Assembly (NCBI GenBank): GCA_020060765.1
Contig: JAGUZQ010000099.1
Coordinates: 1-64,000, forward strand
Source of the DNA: Planctomycetota bacterium
Lineage (GTDB): Bacteria > Planctomycetota > SZUA-567
Reading direction: 5' to 3'
Length of the DNA: 64,000 nucleotides
Program-made: the position numbers and the translations under genes
Notes under the pieces: model-generated
Told to the model about the DNA's origin: nothing
Seen by the model: the letters and a program-made list of their open reading frames with translations, nothing else
The model's database searches: none
Shown: positions 44,573 to 59,249 of the stretch, in pieces
How positions within the stretch are numbered: position 1 is the first letter of the stretch
Layout: each line of letters starts with the position of its first letter

Positions 44573-44968
44573 ATGTCCAAGAAATACGAACCTGAGGATG
44601 AAGAACTTCGGCATTTGCAGGAGGACGATCCGGAACTCTATGCCGAATTGTTGCGCAGGATGTGCGTCTTTGAAGACATCTATCTGCTTTCCGACGATTC
44701 GCTGACAACTCTATTGCCGCAGATCGAACTGGGAGAATTGGCGTTGGCGTGCAAGACGGCTTCCGATGTACTGCTGGCGAAGTTGTGCCGTGCGTTGGGA
44801 AAAACTGAAGGCGATAGGTTGAAAGATGCAATCGACGCTATCGGCATTGCGAAACTTGCCGACATCGAAGCGGCGCAGGAAAGGATTATAGATATCGCCA
44901 AAAGGCTCGACAATAAAGGGGGAAAATCGACCCCCCTCCCGTTGAGTGATGGGAGAAATTACCGCTAA
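44573..44968 (+). CDS. Stand-alone FliG C-terminal-domain paralogue
   Basis: 131 residues. From about residue 18 it aligns end to end with the last third of FliG encoded just upstream: MCVFEDIYLLSDDSLTTLL against MFVFEDVILVNDKGIQSVL, and GELALACKTASDVLLAKLC, DIEAAQERIIDIAKRL. The N-terminal and middle domains are missing. In the helix that in FliG faces the stator, FliG has KEVEHDEL but this protein has PQIELGEL, so most charges are gone. It may cap, brake or dilute FliG in the C ring, or be a decaying duplicate; the intact frame favours a functional protein. It is translated from an ATG that follows fliG closely (33 bases). Confidence 0.85.
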   Translation: MSKKYEPEDEELRHLQEDDPELYAELLRRMCVFEDIYLLSDDSLTTLLPQIELGELALACKTASDVLLAKLCRALGKTEGDRLKDAIDAIGIAKLADIEAAQERIIDIAKRLDNKGGKSTPLPLSDGRNYR

Positions 44969-44972
44969 AAAA

Positions 44973-45007
44973 CTTAGTCCCCTAGTCCCTTAGTCTCTTA
45001 GTCCCCC
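44973..45007 (+). repeat. Octamer-repeat element upstream of fliH (right arm only)
   Basis: CTTAGTCCCCTAGTCCCTTA and following bases match the right arm of the elements at 52312, 57570 and 59215. The left GGGACTAA arm is absent here. It ends 10 bases before the fliH ATG and begins just after the fliG-paralogue stop. Confidence 0.88.
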
Positions 45008-52206: not shown

Positions 52207-52344
52207 GGGACTAAGGGACTAAGTGCAGCGTCCCGTAAATACGTGAACAAACCACGAATCGACAATATTCTCCCCTGGCAGGGGAGGAACTATGCCGATG
52301 CGGCAGCAATACTTAGTCCCCTAGTCCCTTAGAGTCTTAGTCCC
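52207..52344 (+). repeat. Octamer-repeat palindromic element upstream of fliK
   Basis: The left arm GGGACTAAGGGACTAAG (52207-52223) faces the right arm 52312-52344 (CTTAGTCCCCTAGTCCCTTA...), with about 88 bases between. The arms pair over about 17 bases. It ends just upstream of the fliK ribosome site. Confidence 0.93.
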
Positions 52345-52365
52345 TGAAAAAAGCAGGAGAAGACA

Positions 52366-54060
52366 GTGCAACAATCTAGCGTGATATCACTGCTGACGAC
52401 GCTCAATACCGGCGGCAAGTCGGAATCTTCCGGCGGAAAAGACGCGGGCGGAACCGATTTCCTGGACATGGTGCGATCTTTCCTCACTGGCGGCCTGGAG
52501 GCGCAGGGCGCGGATAACACGTCGACGCAGTTTGAGAAGATAGAGATAAGCCCGCGCCAGCAGGAAATCCTGGGACGGATCAGGGAACTGGTGGATCGGG
52601 GCGATCTCGACCGTTCCCAGGTGGAAAGCATGGATTCCGACGAGTTTGCCGAAGTGGAGGAATGGGCGGCGGCGGGTGCGGGCGGTGTTTTCCAGCCTCT
52701 GCCGCAGGATAATACTGTCGCGGAGGAAGACGCAGTCGCCGGGGTTGACGGCGTCGAGCCGGTTGATCTGCTGGAAATGTTGAAAGCCATGCTGGCGGCT
52801 GAAGAAGAAAATGCGACTCAGGTTTCTGCAGCGCCTGTCTCTGATATGATGAAAAATCTGGCCGCGAGTCTGGCGCAACTGGCGGGAGTGGAAAACATTA
52901 CCGCCGGGGATCTGGAAAAACTTGCTTCTGTCCTGACGGAAAAGCTGGCGGGGCTGCAGGCTGGCGGGGGAATGACCGCAAATTTGCCGCTTGCGGAAGA
53001 CTTGGTGCCGGAGGCGGTGACGAAAATATTTGAAATGCCTGCCGCGGAATTGGCCGGTGTTGTGGCCGAGGCTTTGGACGAAGCCGGAATAGCGCCGGAA
53101 GGTATATCCCTGGAAGAGATTCCCGCCCCGATTCTGCGCACGTTGGCGGTGAAGGTGGTGGCGGTTTCCGCCGGAGAGGAAATGCCCGACGCGTCTCTTT
53201 GGCAGAAACTTGCTGGCGACGGCGCGCTCAAGGAGCAGTTAGTTGCAGCGCAACCGGTTGCTGAACTTGCGAATGATATGGTGGCGGTTTCTGGCAAGAC
53301 GGAAATAGAACCAGTCGCCACTGGAGAGAAAACCGCGGTTGTCGAAGAGTTTGCGGCTGAAATGCCAGTAACGATAATCGAGCAGGAATCCGGTGTTGAA
53401 AAGCAAGTCAAGCCGCAGGTCGTCAAGGAAGAGGAAAAGGATTCGGAACATGACAGCGTTTCCGGCAACGAGCTGGCGGTTGATGCGGAACTTGGCGGGG
53501 AAATGAAAATCGGTGAACGCGCGCCGGTCGAAGCAATTGGCGGCGACGACGCGGATTTGAATATCGCCGCCACAGCCAAGGCCGAAAGCCGCCCCGAGGC
53601 GTCGCAGAACGCGCAGGCTCAATACAACAACGAAGCCAGGGCGGCAGTGATGAACGAAAACATCGAGCGTATCAGCCAGATGATGAGCGCCTCCCGCTCT
53701 AACGGCCTGAAACAGATTACCGTGCAACTGTCCCCGCCGGAACTGGGCAACGTGACCGTGCGGATGGAAGTCAGGAACGGTTCGGTCAGCGCGGTGCTGC
53801 ATACCCAGAACATCGAGGCGCGCGACATTCTCTCCAGCGGTTTGGAACATCTGCGGCAGACTTTGCAGGTGCAGGGCGTGGAACTGCGCGGCTTCGACGT
53901 CTCGCTGGGAGCGGGGGACGCTTCCCAAAACGGCACGGGACAGGGCAAGCGCAAACATCGTAACCCCGCCAGCCAGGGCGAGACCCAGGCGATCGGTGCG
54001 GCGGTCGAAGAGGAAAACGCGGCTTACCGGGGCAACGGCGCGCTTAACGTGATTGTGTAA
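52366..54060 (+). CDS. fliK: Flagellar hook-length control protein FliK
   Basis: 564 residues from a GTG with AGGAGA upstream. The N-terminal part is long, acidic and low-complexity (Glu/Ala/Val repeats), the flexible ruler. The C-terminal 120 residues form the Flg_hook domain: LKQITVQLSPPELGNVTVRM, then VSAVLHTQNIEARDIL and QVQGVELRGFDVSLG. FliK is secreted during hook growth and switches the export gate from hook to filament proteins. Confidence 0.93.
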   Translation: MQQSSVISLLTTLNTGGKSESSGGKDAGGTDFLDMVRSFLTGGLEAQGADNTSTQFEKIEISPRQQEILGRIRELVDRGDLDRSQVESMDSDEFAEVEEWAAAGAGGVFQPLPQDNTVAEEDAVAGVDGVEPVDLLEMLKAMLAAEEENATQVSAAPVSDMMKNLAASLAQLAGVENITAGDLEKLASVLTEKLAGLQAGGGMTANLPLAEDLVPEAVTKIFEMPAAELAGVVAEALDEAGIAPEGISLEEIPAPILRTLAVKVVAVSAGEEMPDASLWQKLAGDGALKEQLVAAQPVAELANDMVAVSGKTEIEPVATGEKTAVVEEFAAEMPVTIIEQESGVEKQVKPQVVKEEEKDSEHDSVSGNELAVDAELGGEMKIGERAPVEAIGGDDADLNIAATAKAESRPEASQNAQAQYNNEARAAVMNENIERISQMMSASRSNGLKQITVQLSPPELGNVTVRMEVRNGSVSAVLHTQNIEARDILSSGLEHLRQTLQVQGVELRGFDVSLGAGDASQNGTGQGKRKHRNPASQGETQAIGAAVEEENAAYRGNGALNVIV

Positions 54061-54074
54061 TTGGAGGAATGACC

Positions 54075-54773
54075 ATGACTGCGGCTGTCAGCAATACCGA
54101 AAACTATTATACTTCGAGCGCGTCGGAAGCGGCGAGTACCGCCAGCTCCTCGGATAATAGCTATGTCAAGCACGACGAGTTCCTGAAGCTGCTGACCACG
54201 CAGTTGACCAACCAGGATCCGCTCAACCCCATGGACAATACCGCGTTCCTGTCGCAGATGGCGCAGTTGCAGGCGCTGGACGAGCAGATCGACACCAACA
54301 ACAATCTCGCCCAGTTGAGCCAGGACAGCCAGATGCAGGGCGCGGCCAACCTGGTGGGCAAGAAGATCACCGGCGAGGACGACTACGGCAGCGAAGCCAG
54401 CGGCACCGTCATCAACGCCATGCTCAAGGATGACACGGTCTACATCCAGCTTGACAATCTGCAGAAACTGAAATACGAAAACGTGACCAATGTGGAAAAT
54501 ATAGAAGCCACCACCAACGACGCGACGATGGAATCGCTCCTGCGCTGGCTCACTTACGACAATCGTTTGGGCGCGGCCAGCGGCATGATCGGCAACTATG
54601 TCTTCGGCGAGGACACCAATGGCAATGACGTCGAGGGACTGGTGCTTAATGCAAGCGTGCAGAACGGCAACGTCCTGTTGCAACTGCCTGACGAAGTTTA
54701 TGTGCCGTTCGAAAAGGTCACCGACGTGACTGTGGCCTTCTCGTCTGACGCCGAAACTACAGAAGCCGAATGA
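54075..54773 (+). CDS. flgD: Flagellar hook-capping protein FlgD
   Basis: 232 residues from the ATG at 54075, spaced seven bases from GGAGGA; the ATG at 54069 lies too close. The N-terminus has the export and cap motif FLKLLTTQLTNQDPLNPMDN and TAFLSQMAQLQALDEQIDTN. The beta-rich C-terminal half contains two Tudor/Fn3-like cores. FlgD caps the growing hook and is lost on completion. Confidence 0.96.
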   Translation: MTAAVSNTENYYTSSASEAASTASSSDNSYVKHDEFLKLLTTQLTNQDPLNPMDNTAFLSQMAQLQALDEQIDTNNNLAQLSQDSQMQGAANLVGKKITGEDDYGSEASGTVINAMLKDDTVYIQLDNLQKLKYENVTNVENIEATTNDATMESLLRWLTYDNRLGAASGMIGNYVFGEDTNGNDVEGLVLNASVQNGNVLLQLPDEVYVPFEKVTDVTVAFSSDAETTEAE

Positions 54774-54782
54774 CGAACTGTA

Positions 54783-54796
54783 AGATAAATTTATCT
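54783..54796. repeat. 14-bp perfect palindrome after flgD
   Basis: AGATAAATTTATCT is fully self-complementary and lies 10 bases after the flgD stop. It is A+T-rich, so a stable terminator is unlikely; an operator site is possible. Confidence 0.5.
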
Positions 54797-54890
54797 GAAA
54801 AGTAAAAAAATATTATTTTTTGATGGGAATAGCGCAGGAAACCTCTTTGTAAAAACGTATAAACCTGTGCGGCAAGTGAGGAGATGCAAA

Positions 54891-57062
54891 ATGGGACTCA
54901 GTCAGGCATTGTACAGCGCGATCAGCGGTTTGACCAACCACCAGCGCGCAATGGACAACATCGGTAACAATCTGGCCAACGTGAACACGGTCGCGTTCAA
55001 AAAAGGCGTGTTCCAGTTCCGCACCTTGCTGGAGCGGACTCTCCAGGGAGGCACCGCCGCCGACGCGCAGACCGGTCGCGGCGCGATCAACCCCATCATG
55101 CTGGGCGTAGGCACCCAGACCGGCAGCATCAACAAGGATTTCTCGGCCGGTTCGCCCGACATCACCGGCAACCAGCGCGATATGATGATCGACGGCAACG
55201 GCTATTTCGTCCTGCGCAACGGCAACAGCAACGTCTTTACCCGCGACGGCTCCTTCTACCTCGGCACCGACGGCAGCCTGCTGGGCGGTAACGGTTTGCA
55301 GGTGCAGGGCGTGATGGCGGTCAACGGCCAGATTCCCGCCGCAGGCAGCGTGCAAGACCTGATCATTCCCATCGGCAAGACCGGCGCGGCGCAAGAAACC
55401 ACCCAGGCCTCCTACAGCGGCAACCTGAACTCCGACCAGGAAATCTCCACCGGCCTGAAACTGGTCGGCGACAGCGGCGGCGGCAATCCGCTTCTGCCCA
55501 CCGACGGCGTCCCCGCCGTGGGCGACACCTATGCGGGCACGCGCGCGTGGCTGGGCGACACCAACGTGGATACCAGTTGGACAGTGCTTACCGCCGCCGG
55601 GGGCAACGTGGCTGGCAACGAACGCATGATTAACGGCGGCTCGGTGCAGACGACCGCTCCGCTGTCCATTGATGCGGGCGGCGGCACCTATGCGGCGGCT
55701 TCGATGGCCACCGACCTGGCGGACGTGTATTATCTTTCCGGCAACAGTTGGCTAAAGCCCTTCGACGGCATTGCCAACGGTGACGAGATTACCATAAACT
55801 TCGCCAAAGGCGGGCGCAGCCACGCTGCCACTTTCGTGTACAACGATACGGCTACGAATCCCGCCAACACTTTCGCGCATTTCATGCGCTTCCTCACCGG
55901 CGGCACAGACCAGTTTGCCGATGTCTCCAGCGTGGATGACATTGAAGCCGACACCACTCGCCTGCAGGGCGGCGTGATGGGAACGGTCAAGATCACCGGC
56001 AACGTCAGCGGCGCCTATACCGACCTCACCGGCGGCGGCGTCACCACCGAAGCGGGCGAGGAACCCTACGATTCGCCGGTAGAGACCGCCGGTTCCTTCA
56101 CCCGCAGCTACATTAACGACGTCGACTACGACGGCGACAACGTCAACGACGGCGACTCCTTCAATCTCTCGGTCGTCAGCAACCTCGGTTCGGAAAACGC
56201 CATCACCGACATCGAAATCGTCTACAACAACGTCAAGTATACCGACATCTTCCAGAACGACCGCGACTACAGCGCCATCCAGGGCGGCAGCTCGATCACC
56301 AACATGGTGTTGTATGATTCGCTGGGCAACCCCAAGGAAGTGACGATGCAGCTCAGTCTGGTCGATCGCGACAGCAACTTCAGCACCTGGCGCTGGGTAG
56401 CCGATTCCGATGACGACACCGACGCCGATTTCCAGTTCGCCAATAACCAGATCACCACCAGTTCCAACGTCGGCACCGGCCTGATCCGCTTTGACTCGGA
56501 AGGCCGCTTTGTCAAGGGCGCGGAGCTTTCCGAAAGCGGCGGCATAGAACTCAGCCTCGATGACCAGGGCGTGAACTTCCCCCTCACCATAGCTCTGCAG
56601 GAAGGGCTGGCCACCAGTGCCACGCAGGATCTGGATTTCAGCGCCATGACCTCCGTCGCTTCGGAAAGCGACTTCAACCTGAAGGAACAGGACGGTTCCC
56701 CTCCCGGCACGCTCGACAGCTTCAGCGTCACCCAGGACGGCGTGATCCAGGGCGTCTACTCCAACGGCGTGATCGATTCGATCGGGCGGATTTCGGTGGC
56801 GCTGATCGCCAACGAATCCGGGCTGATCGCGGCGGGAGACAACCTCTTCTACGAAGGCCCCAGTTCCGGCTCGGCGCAGGTCGGGTTCGCCGGGGTGGGC
56901 GGTCGCGGCGGGGTGCGCTCGGGCGCGCTTGAAACCTCTAACGTCGATCTGTCGGAGGAATTCACCAAGCTGATCACGATCCAGCGCGGCTTCCAGGCTA
57001 ACTCCCGGGTTATCACCACTTCTGACGAAATGCTGACGGAACTGGTCAACCTGAAGCGGTAA
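54891..57062 (+). CDS. flgE: Flagellar hook protein FlgE
   Basis: 723 residues from the ATG at 54891, with GAGGAG seven bases upstream; an upstream GTG-type frame adds eight residues without homology. The N-terminal hook/rod motif SGLTNHQRAMDNIGNNLANV and the C-terminal VDLSEEFTKLITIQRGFQAN are complete, as needed for coiled-coil D0 assembly. The middle is long: FlgE in E. coli has 402 residues, so the hook has large extra surface domains, rich in Asp/Gly/Thr. Surface-exposed domain growth is usual in this phylum-level group but unproven here. Confidence 0.95.
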   Translation: MGLSQALYSAISGLTNHQRAMDNIGNNLANVNTVAFKKGVFQFRTLLERTLQGGTAADAQTGRGAINPIMLGVGTQTGSINKDFSAGSPDITGNQRDMMIDGNGYFVLRNGNSNVFTRDGSFYLGTDGSLLGGNGLQVQGVMAVNGQIPAAGSVQDLIIPIGKTGAAQETTQASYSGNLNSDQEISTGLKLVGDSGGGNPLLPTDGVPAVGDTYAGTRAWLGDTNVDTSWTVLTAAGGNVAGNERMINGGSVQTTAPLSIDAGGGTYAAASMATDLADVYYLSGNSWLKPFDGIANGDEITINFAKGGRSHAATFVYNDTATNPANTFAHFMRFLTGGTDQFADVSSVDDIEADTTRLQGGVMGTVKITGNVSGAYTDLTGGGVTTEAGEEPYDSPVETAGSFTRSYINDVDYDGDNVNDGDSFNLSVVSNLGSENAITDIEIVYNNVKYTDIFQNDRDYSAIQGGSSITNMVLYDSLGNPKEVTMQLSLVDRDSNFSTWRWVADSDDDTDADFQFANNQITTSSNVGTGLIRFDSEGRFVKGAELSESGGIELSLDDQGVNFPLTIALQEGLATSATQDLDFSAMTSVASESDFNLKEQDGSPPGTLDSFSVTQDGVIQGVYSNGVIDSIGRISVALIANESGLIAAGDNLFYEGPSSGSAQVGFAGVGGRGGVRSGALETSNVDLSEEFTKLITIQRGFQANSRVITTSDEMLTELVNLKR

Positions 57063-57089
57063 ACGCGCCGGTAGCAGGGGTTTGAATAA

Positions 57090-57134
57090 ACGGGGACGGG
57101 AGCCTTAAACGGCTGCTGTCTCCGTTATTTTGCG
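57090..57134 (+). terminator. Hairpin between flgE and flbD, terminator- or attenuator-like
   Basis: AACGGGGACGGGAGCC and CGGCTGCTGTCTCCGTT pair over about 16 bp with G-T pairs and one mismatch, loop TTAAA, then ATTTTG. It could lower expression downstream of flgE rather than stop it. Confidence 0.45.
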
Positions 57135-57236
57135 GAATGGCGCAATCAGCGTCAAGCCGGGCGCGGGAATGGCCGATAAACCGGTAGGTATTCTTTTCTG
57201 GTTACTCGGTCGCAGGCGCGGCCTGGAGTGGAGCTA

Positions 57237-57437
57237 ATGATACGCGTGACGCGGCTGAACGGCTTGCCGCTGGTGGTCAACGCCGGGCTGGTGAAATTTG
57301 TCGAGGAGACGCCAGATACTATTATCACACTGCGCGATGGCGAAAAAATCCTTGTGCAGGAATCGATCGACACGGTGATCGAACGGGCGGTGGAATATGT
57401 CCGTTCTACCCGTTTTCCGCCGGGAATGGATTTGTGA
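57237..57437 (+). CDS. flbD: Flagellar protein FlbD
   Basis: 66 residues from the ATG at 57237; a GTG at 57228 in the same frame is possible. The small FlbD family pattern is complete: MIRVTRLNGLPLVVNAGLVK, then ETPDTIITLRDGEKILVQES and IERAVEYV. FlbD of this type (not the Caulobacter regulator of the same name) is a conserved flagellar cluster protein of unclear role, almost always just before motA, as here. Confidence 0.95.
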   Translation: MIRVTRLNGLPLVVNAGLVKFVEETPDTIITLRDGEKILVQESIDTVIERAVEYVRSTRFPPGMDL

Positions 57438-57442
57438 AATTT

Positions 57443-57603
57443 GGGACTAAGGGACTAAGGGACTAAGGGACTAGGGGACTAAGGGACAAGAAAATCTGTT
57501 TCAGGCACGGTATCGATAACTTCTGATTGCAAAAAACTTACGGCAAGCAGGGAAATCTTTGACCAGTGCCTTAGTCTCCTAGTCCCTCAGAGCCTTAGTT
57601 CCC
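57443..57603 (+). repeat. Octamer-repeat palindromic element upstream of motA
   Basis: The left arm is the clearest of the family: GGGACTAA three times in tandem, then GGGACTAG, GGGACTAA and a final GGGACAAG (57443-57490), all in 8-bp steps. The right arm is 57570-57603 (CTTAGTCTCCTAGTCCCTCA...), with about 79 bases between. The arms could form a stem of about 30 bp with a few mismatches. Confidence 0.95.
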
Positions 57604-57639
57604 AAGAGGTGTTTTCAAGGACGATAGCCTGGAGCTGGC

Positions 57640-58410
57640 ATGGATCTGGCAACCGTAATCGGTTACGTGACAGGCGTGGTTTGCGTGGTGTTTATCGGCA
57701 TCGGCATTCCCAACCTGCCGGTGTTTTACGACACCGCCAGTTTCTTCATCGTGCTGGGCGGTGGCTTGGCAGCGACCATGATCAGTTGCCCGCTGGAAAT
57801 GGTGACTGCGGCTCTGGGGATATCGAAACACGTCTTTTTCCACAAGGCCGACAGCCCCATGGATCTGATCAAGCGCATGGTGGAATTCGCCGAAATCGCG
57901 CGCCGCGACGGCATTCTGGCGCTGGAAAACGTGACCGACACTATTCAGGATCCGTTCCTGGTCAAGGGTATCCAACTCGCCGTCGACGGCACCGACCCGG
58001 AACTGATCGAGCAGATCATGAATACGGAACTGGAGAATATCGAGTCGCGGCACGGCAAAGGCCGCAAGCCCTACGAGCTGTTCACCAAGTACGCCCCGGC
58101 GTGGGGCATGATCGGGACGCTGATCGGTCTGATCAATATGCTTTCGGGCGGCATGGACGATCCGGCCAAGCTCTCCAGCGGCATGGCGGTGGCGCTTATC
58201 ACCACCATGTACGGCGCGGTGGTCGCCAACTATGCGTGCGGTCCCATCGCCGACAAACTGATTTTGCGCAACCAGGAGGAGATGCTGCTGAAGGAAATCG
58301 TCCTGCGCGGGGTCATGAGCATCCAGTCCGGAGATAACCCGCGCATCGTGGAGCAGAAGCTGAAGATTTTCCTGCCGCCGAAGATGCGCGATTTTGGCAA
58401 GGATAGCTGA
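57640..58410 (+). CDS. motA: Flagellar motor stator protein MotA
   Basis: 256 residues with four membrane segments (about 4-24, 32-52, 150-172, 183-205). The cytoplasmic loop contains the charged helix HGKGRKPYELFTKYAPAWGM and the channel motif GMIGTLIGLINMLSGG with its conserved Pro/Gly. MotA conducts ions with MotB and pushes FliG. Its stop overlaps the motB start by one base. Confidence 0.97.
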   Translation: MDLATVIGYVTGVVCVVFIGIGIPNLPVFYDTASFFIVLGGGLAATMISCPLEMVTAALGISKHVFFHKADSPMDLIKRMVEFAEIARRDGILALENVTDTIQDPFLVKGIQLAVDGTDPELIEQIMNTELENIESRHGKGRKPYELFTKYAPAWGMIGTLIGLINMLSGGMDDPAKLSSGMAVALITTMYGAVVANYACGPIADKLILRNQEEMLLKEIVLRGVMSIQSGDNPRIVEQKLKIFLPPKMRDFGKDS

Positions 58411-59108
58411 TGCCGAAAAAAGAGGAAAAGGCTCCCGAAGGCGCGCCGGAATGGATGCTGACCTACGGCGACATGGTGACTCTGCTGCTGTGCTTTTTCG
58501 TGCTGCTGTTCACCATGTCGGAGATCAAGAAGGACAAGCTGTCCAAAACCATGCGCGCGTTCCAGAAGCAGTTCGGCGTGTTGCCGAAATACAAGGCGAC
58601 GGTGCAGGTTTTCGTGCAGGCCCAGCGGATGACCGAAACCGAAAGCAACGTCCTCAGGCGGGGGCCGCCGGGAAAGCACACGGCGGTGCAGACCATCGTC
58701 GAGGACGAAAAAATGAAAGTAATTGTCGGCGGCAAGTCGCTGTTCGAGGCCGACTCGGCGGTGCTGCTGCCGGAAGGCAGGCAGTTGCTGCTGACCCAGG
58801 TCGCGCCGGATCTGCGCGGGTTCAAGAACCGGATCGAGGTGCGCGGACACACCGCTTCGACGGGGCGGGTCGACCGCGACTTGTGGTATCTGGGTTACGA
58901 GCGTGCCTTCGCGGTGATGCGCTTTCTGGCCGACCCGAACTACGGCGGCATCGACCCGAGGCGCTTCCGGGTGGTGAGCTGCTCCGACAATGAGCCGCGC
59001 GCCACCAACCTCACCGACGTCGGTCGCGAGGAAAACCGGCGAGTGGAGATTATCATGACCGAGGAGTTCATCAAGGAAATAGACTCCGTCGATCAGAAAA
59101 AGCAGTGA
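58410..59108 (+). CDS. motB: Flagellar motor stator protein MotB
   Basis: 232 residues. The N-terminal plug and channel helix reads PEWMLTYGDMVTLLLCFFVLL with the ion-binding Asp21, and the C-terminal OmpA-like domain binds peptidoglycan (RIEVRGHTASTG, GYERAFAVMRFL, NRRVEIIM). Tyr rather than the Na-type pattern at the neighbour position gives no firm hint of proton or sodium use. It anchors the stator to the wall. Confidence 0.97.
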   Translation: MPKKEEKAPEGAPEWMLTYGDMVTLLLCFFVLLFTMSEIKKDKLSKTMRAFQKQFGVLPKYKATVQVFVQAQRMTETESNVLRRGPPGKHTAVQTIVEDEKMKVIVGGKSLFEADSAVLLPEGRQLLLTQVAPDLRGFKNRIEVRGHTASTGRVDRDLWYLGYERAFAVMRFLADPNYGGIDPRRFRVVSCSDNEPRATNLTDVGREENRRVEIIMTEEFIKEIDSVDQKKQ

Positions 59109-59114
59109 TTTTTC

Positions 59115-59249
59115 GGGACTAGGGGACTAAGGGACTAAGATTTTGCTCTATCGCGCAACGTTTGCCGCGGTTGCATAAGGCAGACGGAAACAGCATAAGC
59201 TTTCGCCGGGAAATCTTAGTCCCCTAGTCCCATAGAGTCTTAGTCCCCC
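59115..59249 (+). repeat. Octamer-repeat palindromic element upstream of fliL
   Basis: The left arm is GGGACTAGGGGACTAAGGGACTAAG read in two pieces (59115-59139). The right arm is 59215-59249 (CTTAGTCCCCTAGTCCCATA...), with about 75 bases between. It ends 20 bases before the fliL GTG. Confidence 0.94.

Follow-up and report, generated by a model that had tools for sequence, protein, structure and literature searches.

A dispersed palindromic element family with octamer-array ends, probably mobile, in a Planctomycetota genome

The genome of a Planctomycetota bacterium contains a family of short palindromes with ends built from tandem GGGACTAR octamers, which we interpret as a lineage-specific, non-autonomous dispersed mobile element of MITE- or REPIN-like type, a reading to which we assign a probability of roughly 0.7. 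We count in its support the more than 80 dispersed copies, their sharp ends at octamer boundaries, the occurrence of near-identical copies at unrelated loci and the absence of the family from relatives, together with the lack of a target-site duplication, the placement of copies at stop codons, and the stop codons that the arms contain in every one of the six frames.

The family was encountered in a window of 64,000 nucleotides, by which we mean that whole stretch of DNA. Direct reading of the sequence bears out an earlier, sequence-only reading in which three palindromes and one lone right arm were described, all composed of 8-bp GGGACTAR units and all at the positions claimed; in the intervals 52207-52344, 57443-57603 and 59115-59249 the octamer arms face inward. 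The octamer GGGACTAA has 14 exact matches in the window, where about one is expected, and all of them fall inside these four places. The component parts are as follows.

44974..45005, minus strand: lone right arm, TTAGTCCC CTAGTCCC TTAGTCTC TTAGTCCC, found by sequence reading and octamer search, with a weak covariance-model match
52207..52222, plus strand: left arm of the fliK copy, 2 octamers, beginning 1 nt past the upstream stop codon
52223..52312, no strand assigned: spacer of the fliK copy, consisting of two other dispersed repeats (the GTACAGCGCCCC family and a CTCCCCT..AGGGGAG family), not core A
52313..52344, minus strand: right arm of the fliK copy, 4 octamers, 21 nt ahead of fliK
57443..57490, plus strand: left arm of the motA copy, 6 octamers, beginning 5 nt past the stop codon of a small ORF
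57491..57570, plus strand: core A, the conserved spacer (about 80 bp) of the motA copy, which about 45 genomic copies have
57571..57603, minus strand: right arm of the motA copy, 4 units, preceding motA
59115..59138, plus strand: left arm of the fliL copy, 3 octamers, 6 nt past the motB stop codon
59139..59215, no strand assigned: spacer of the fliL copy, with no close match elsewhere except for AAATCTT adjoining the right arm
59216..59249, minus strand: right arm of the fliL copy, 4 units, preceding fliL

These elements lie between a fliG-C-like ORF and fliH, an ORF of unknown role and fliK, the small ORF and motA, and motB and fliL, respectively. The lone right arm is of the right-arm type only, with no left arm found, and is separated by 5 nt from the stop codon of the fliG-C-like ORF and by 12 nt from fliH. 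Pfam searches confirm fliF, fliG, a second short FliG C-terminal ORF, fliH, a fliI-type ATPase gene, fliK, flgE, motA, motB, fliL, fliO, fliP, fliR, flhB and flhA as neighbors. The short FliG C-terminal ORF (131 aa, window 44573-44968) follows the full-length fliG, contains the C-terminal domain only, and is a possible partial duplicate. A further flagellar copy, the fifth, is located by the covariance model 560 bp beyond the window end (contig C15, 64560-64682), in the gap that separates flhB from flhA.

It had been noted that no element was seen in the 39 kb outside the flagellar cluster, which holds for the window but not for the genome. Across the genome as a whole (4.78 Mb, 130 contigs) there are 142 exact matches to the pattern GGGACTARGGGACTA, as against none for the reversed control, and the exact-match loci, all of which were fetched, collapse to 77 clusters. 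Together with the covariance model, which was built from 33 copies and used to score the best 150 candidates, so that the copy count is a lower bound, these give at least 83 element loci. The whole element spans about 130-160 bp, with the core, about 80 bp long, between an octamer-array arm and its inverted counterpart. In the oriented alignment core A has the consensus AAAAATCTTTTGCAGGCGCGGTGCCGATAACTCCTGATTGCGAAAAACTTACGGCAAGCAGGGAAATCTTCGACCAGAGC; to its left stand GGGACTAR units, variable in number, and to its right CTTAGTCCCCTAGTCCCTTAGAGCCTTAGTCCC. Median pairwise identity among the 33 aligned copies is 77%, and the best pairs, which sit at unrelated loci, are 96-98% identical across 122-130 columns; several near-identical copies lie at contig ends, as recent repeats would give. 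We found no paper containing the exact octamer strings, no gathering-level Rfam match in the element region (the best sub-threshold matches fall within genes), and no match to the element in the phages, plasmids and viral contigs searched.

The spacers, at first thought to be mostly unconserved, are of several kinds. That of the motA copy is a clear member of the dispersed core A, and the arms of the fliK copy enclose pieces of two other dispersed palindromes, the GTACAGCGCCCC family and the CTCCCCCTTCCAGGGGGAG family; the fliL spacer has no close relatives, and is possibly a decayed core A. Some octamer elements lie within the GTACAGCGCCCC palindrome, giving palindromes nested in palindromes. 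Core A shows no established orientation with respect to transcription, with 22 copies in the same direction and 12 in the opposite one (p = 0.12).

The dispersed palindrome families other than the octamer elements (AGTACAGCGCCCC... and CTCCCCCTTCCAGGGGGAG...), seen at loci L276-L292 and in the window at 52223-52311, are nested at each other's centers and inside octamer elements. A separate palindrome, GTCATTCCCGCGAAGGCGGGAATCCAG, which we take to resemble the Neisseria dRS3 sequence, occurs within or beside octamer elements at L080 (2860-3300), L085 (2860-3290) and L072 (2600-2900).

Among the explanations suggested by the window is that these are flagellar regulatory elements, either mRNA hairpins or protein-binding sites, that control the flagellar genes as a set. 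The five copies within 20 kb of flagellar genes do constitute the densest 20-kb stretch in the genome and the predicted hairpins are strong, but uniform scatter reaches five copies in about 4% of trials. Scatter of the elements through the genome had been named beforehand as evidence against such a role, and the genome-wide search finds copies spread beside genes of all kinds, among them ilvC, ilvN, leuA, gcvT, pheS, pheT, uvrC, rlmN and many more. The 50 downstream proteins at other loci include functions in amino-acid biosynthesis and DNA repair, tRNA synthetases, glycosidases, transporters, kinases and others, with one FapA and one PilM as the only motility-like matches. A flagella-specific regulatory role is therefore not supported; moreover, the five nearest relatives lack the elements and yet preserve the order of the flagellar genes. 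We regard control of the flagellar genes as extremely unlikely, and any effect of the elements on flagellar expression would be incidental. Of the earlier interpretation it is the suggestion of a mobile element with octamer expansion that the evidence favors, and a tempting but wrong story, that of a palindrome-marked flagellar regulon, is replaced by a defined repeat family.

The location of the elements relative to genes was analyzed using gene calls from a simple codon-usage script, in which start codons are approximate and stop codons reliable. Elements occupy 59 co-directional, nine divergent and one convergent gap (n = 69), compared with 219, 26 and 31 control gaps at the same loci (n = 276). 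Convergent gaps are depleted (1/69 versus 31/276; Fisher p = 0.03 for gaps of at least 15 nt); the corresponding values for divergent gaps are 9/69 and 26/276. Within co-directional gaps, 38 of 58 elements lie no more than 8 nt from the upstream stop codon or overlap it, whereas 24 would be expected with uniform placement, and none of the uniform-placement simulations attained 38. No excess was found near start codons in gaps of at least 50 nt (12 versus 11.9 expected), and targeting of start codons was rejected, there being no bias beyond gap length. The proximity to flagellar start codons is thus real but is not targeting, the bias being toward the upstream stop codon, and the spacing of 10-37 bases before a start is a by-product of the shortness of the gaps. 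The octamer arms contain a stop codon in each of the six frames, which suggests a simple reason why the octamer sequence can live at gene ends.

Placement of this kind is also what would be expected of post-transcriptional sites of the REP kind distributed genome-wide, with hairpins 0-15 nt from the stop codon stalling ribosomes or blocking 3′ exonucleases in operons. The elements are tight against stop codons between co-directional genes, and ribosome stalling and reduced translation have been reported for REPs no more than 15 nt from a stop codon, in work cited in the RepRanger paper (PMC12306157). Folding of the three window elements predicts the large hairpins that had been anticipated, with minimum free energies of -71.4, -57.6 and -59.8 kcal/mol and z-scores of -6.95, -6.27 and -5.55, although any long inverted repeat must fold strongly. 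The paired arm columns are nearly invariant and show none of the covariation that would indicate selection on the RNA structure, compensatory change not exceeding that in shuffles. No intrinsic terminator was scored within the elements. That the arms are conserved as sequence would seem to favor recognition of their DNA over selection on the shape of the RNA. The spacers are, in addition, replaceable by other repeats, and the elements are not shared with relatives. We therefore consider REP-kind control unlikely as the explanation for the family, and an effect of this type may have arisen as a by-product of the spread and not have driven it. A translational side effect on the upstream gene is nonetheless plausible by analogy for copies no more than 15 nt after a stop codon, because of the ribosome stalling cited for REPs in that source.

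The evidence for mobility comes from the element ends and from comparison with other genomes. The ends are sharp and coincide with octamer boundaries; the base adjoining the outermost octamer is T at 97 of 153 ends, and the sequence further out is near random. We found no target-site duplication, since direct repeats of 5 bp or more flank none of 64 copies and 3-4 bp repeats occur at chance level. A search for the arm in 60 relatives yielded a single match, in one distant genome, with none in any same-family genome, and 14 genomes drawn from the family, order and class of this bacterium (G001-G011, G016-G018) contain no covariance-model match. The gap between the small ORF and motA measures 52, 89, 107, 71 and 31 nt in the five nearest relatives, where it contains no octamer; in the present genome it extends over about 200 nt and includes the 161-bp element. 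This sequence comparison supports a probable insertion in the present lineage, with the qualification that the relatives belong to other genera and the exact empty site is not alignable.

No transposase bounded by octamer arms, and no autonomous transposon with the same ends, was seen in the loci fetched from this draft genome of 130 contigs. A lone Y1-type transposase gene (Y1_Tnp) is present (C61:4991-5338; locus L094, 4991-5338), and no octamers occur near it in the 12 kb read. This bears on whether the elements are REPINs moved by a RAYT transposase. REPINs have inverted conserved ends, and RAYT genes have REPs adjoining them (Bertels and Rainey 2011, PMC3116915). Inverted conserved ends, hairpin, extragenic location, high copy number and absent target duplication would all agree with this origin; however, the single Y1_Tnp gene has no octamers beside it, the RAYT link is thus unsupported, and we judge it improbable. 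Other short palindromes do lie close to the Y1_Tnp gene. Elsewhere in the genome, a reverse transcriptase domain (RVT_1, E = 9.9e-39) was seen in a 618-aa open frame (G000 C22:24916-25608, L296).

Under the mobile-element reading, the unit would have a core some 80 bp long, which is core A in about 45 copies and consists of other palindromic repeats in some others, between an arm of GGGACTAR repeats and an octamer arm in inverted orientation; a putative trans-acting enzyme would recognize the arms and move the unit. Copies would survive where they are least harmful, between co-directional genes, where the arms could replace a lost stop codon and would leave the ribosome-binding region of the next gene intact. 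Several observations count against this reading. No transposase bounded by the arms was found and the Y1-type gene has no octamers nearby; DDE-driven MITEs typically have a target-site duplication, and none is seen here; at least two unrelated types of core are found between the same arms, and a simple MITE of single ancestry does not account for this; and inward octamer arrays with no shared core are present in other phyla.

The last of these observations derives from a scan of genome contigs with GGGACTARGGGACTARGGGAC, which recovered at least 109 stretches in Acidobacteriota, Bacteroidota, Deltaproteobacteria, Opitutaceae, Cyanobacteria and others, GGGACTAR-like arrays recurring in Acidobacteriota, Bacteroidota, Deltaproteobacteria, Verrucomicrobia and Cyanobacteria. 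In 18 array-carrying genomes, chosen because they carry an array, a shorter pattern occurs up to 70 times, with one control match in total. Where both neighboring genes were called (n = 77), the G-rich strand is sense after the upstream gene in 53 arrays and antisense in 24. Of the 53 sense arrays, 32 are within 20 nt of the stop codon or overlap it; inward-facing pairs occur in these genomes too. These arrays at gene edges in at least five phyla, most of them directed outward from the gene and many in inward-facing pairs, could conceivably be written by a putative enzyme that adds templated octamers to DNA ends, telomere-like and on each side of a break, or by one that mobilizes units with array caps, the caps having become mobile-palindrome ends in the present genome. 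The orientation of the arrays, the variation in unit number, the mixture of cores and the absence of target duplication are all compatible with this scenario, which we nevertheless hold to be a long shot. That unrelated phyla have this octamer in common makes the origin of the arrays testable.

A genome of the same class, G019, has a parallel family composed of GGCACTRA units. At its loci L256-L267 there are inward GGCACTRA pairs, and at several of these the downstream arm, when read in frame, can supply the hydrophobic portion of a signal peptide (CLSALVPQCLLL), a start codon lies in the spacer, and the other arm encodes the final residues, EALRD or TEGLRH, of the upstream genes. In Acidobacteriota and Bacteroidota (L116, L122, L140, L170 and L174) there are arrays of 10 to more than 20 octamers with mixed units such as GGGACTGA and GGGACGAA.

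The closest published counterparts in placement are the G-rich heptamer arrays (GGGNATC and GGGGA(C/T)T) described in intergenic regions of Xanthomonas and Nostoc, with function unknown, which include about 70 inverted pairs in Xanthomonas and have neighbors with no functional bias (Rehm et al. 2015, PMC4692102). Both are tandem G-rich units between aligned ORFs with inverted pairs and no functional bias of neighbors, and the published placement rule, sense within 50 bp after a stop codon and antisense within 50 bp before the next ORF, is followed here too. These shared properties, and the fit of (GGGACTAA)4 to a G3N5 pattern, raise the possibility that the family belongs to these repeats and is kept because the arms form G-quadruplexes. 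Four GGG runs in quadruplex spacing, which the published repeats prefer, are nonetheless rare here, occurring in only 18 of 128 arms, for which reason we reject G-quadruplex formation as a conserved feature; the commonest right arm contains a GGCTCTAA unit that breaks the run; and the published class has no dispersed core, none having been described there, in contrast to core A. We think membership in that class very improbable. The unit differs as well, being an octamer here and a heptamer there, and the heptamers lack the six-frame stops of the octamers. The published repeats are also under-represented between divergent ORFs, which the present elements are not, convergent gaps being depleted instead.

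Like REPINs, the elements have two inverted conserved ends around a spacer of about 70 bp, form a hairpin, and are extragenic and dispersed; unlike REPINs, they end in arrays whose number of octamers varies, no RAYT flanked by matching repeats was found here, and the core is conserved in sequence with no compensatory change. With MITEs and ERIC-type sequences they share being short, non-coding, palindromic, intergenic, lineage-specific and present in high copy, and like MITEs they have terminal inverted repeats; they differ in having no target-site duplication (0/64 copies), no matching autonomous element found, and octamer arrays as termini. The TAACTGA heptamer arrays of the Beggiatoaceae (MacGregor 2015, PMC4679880) are likewise short tandem intergenic units that recur across unrelated phyla, but those repeats are direct and lie just upstream of start codons, whereas here there are inverted pairs with a core and a bias to the stop codon. 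The family joins two literatures that have until now been separate, that of G-rich tandem repeats hugging stop codons and that of mobile palindromes, and it adds a variant to the known kinds of repeat, with a regulatory role that is only putative.
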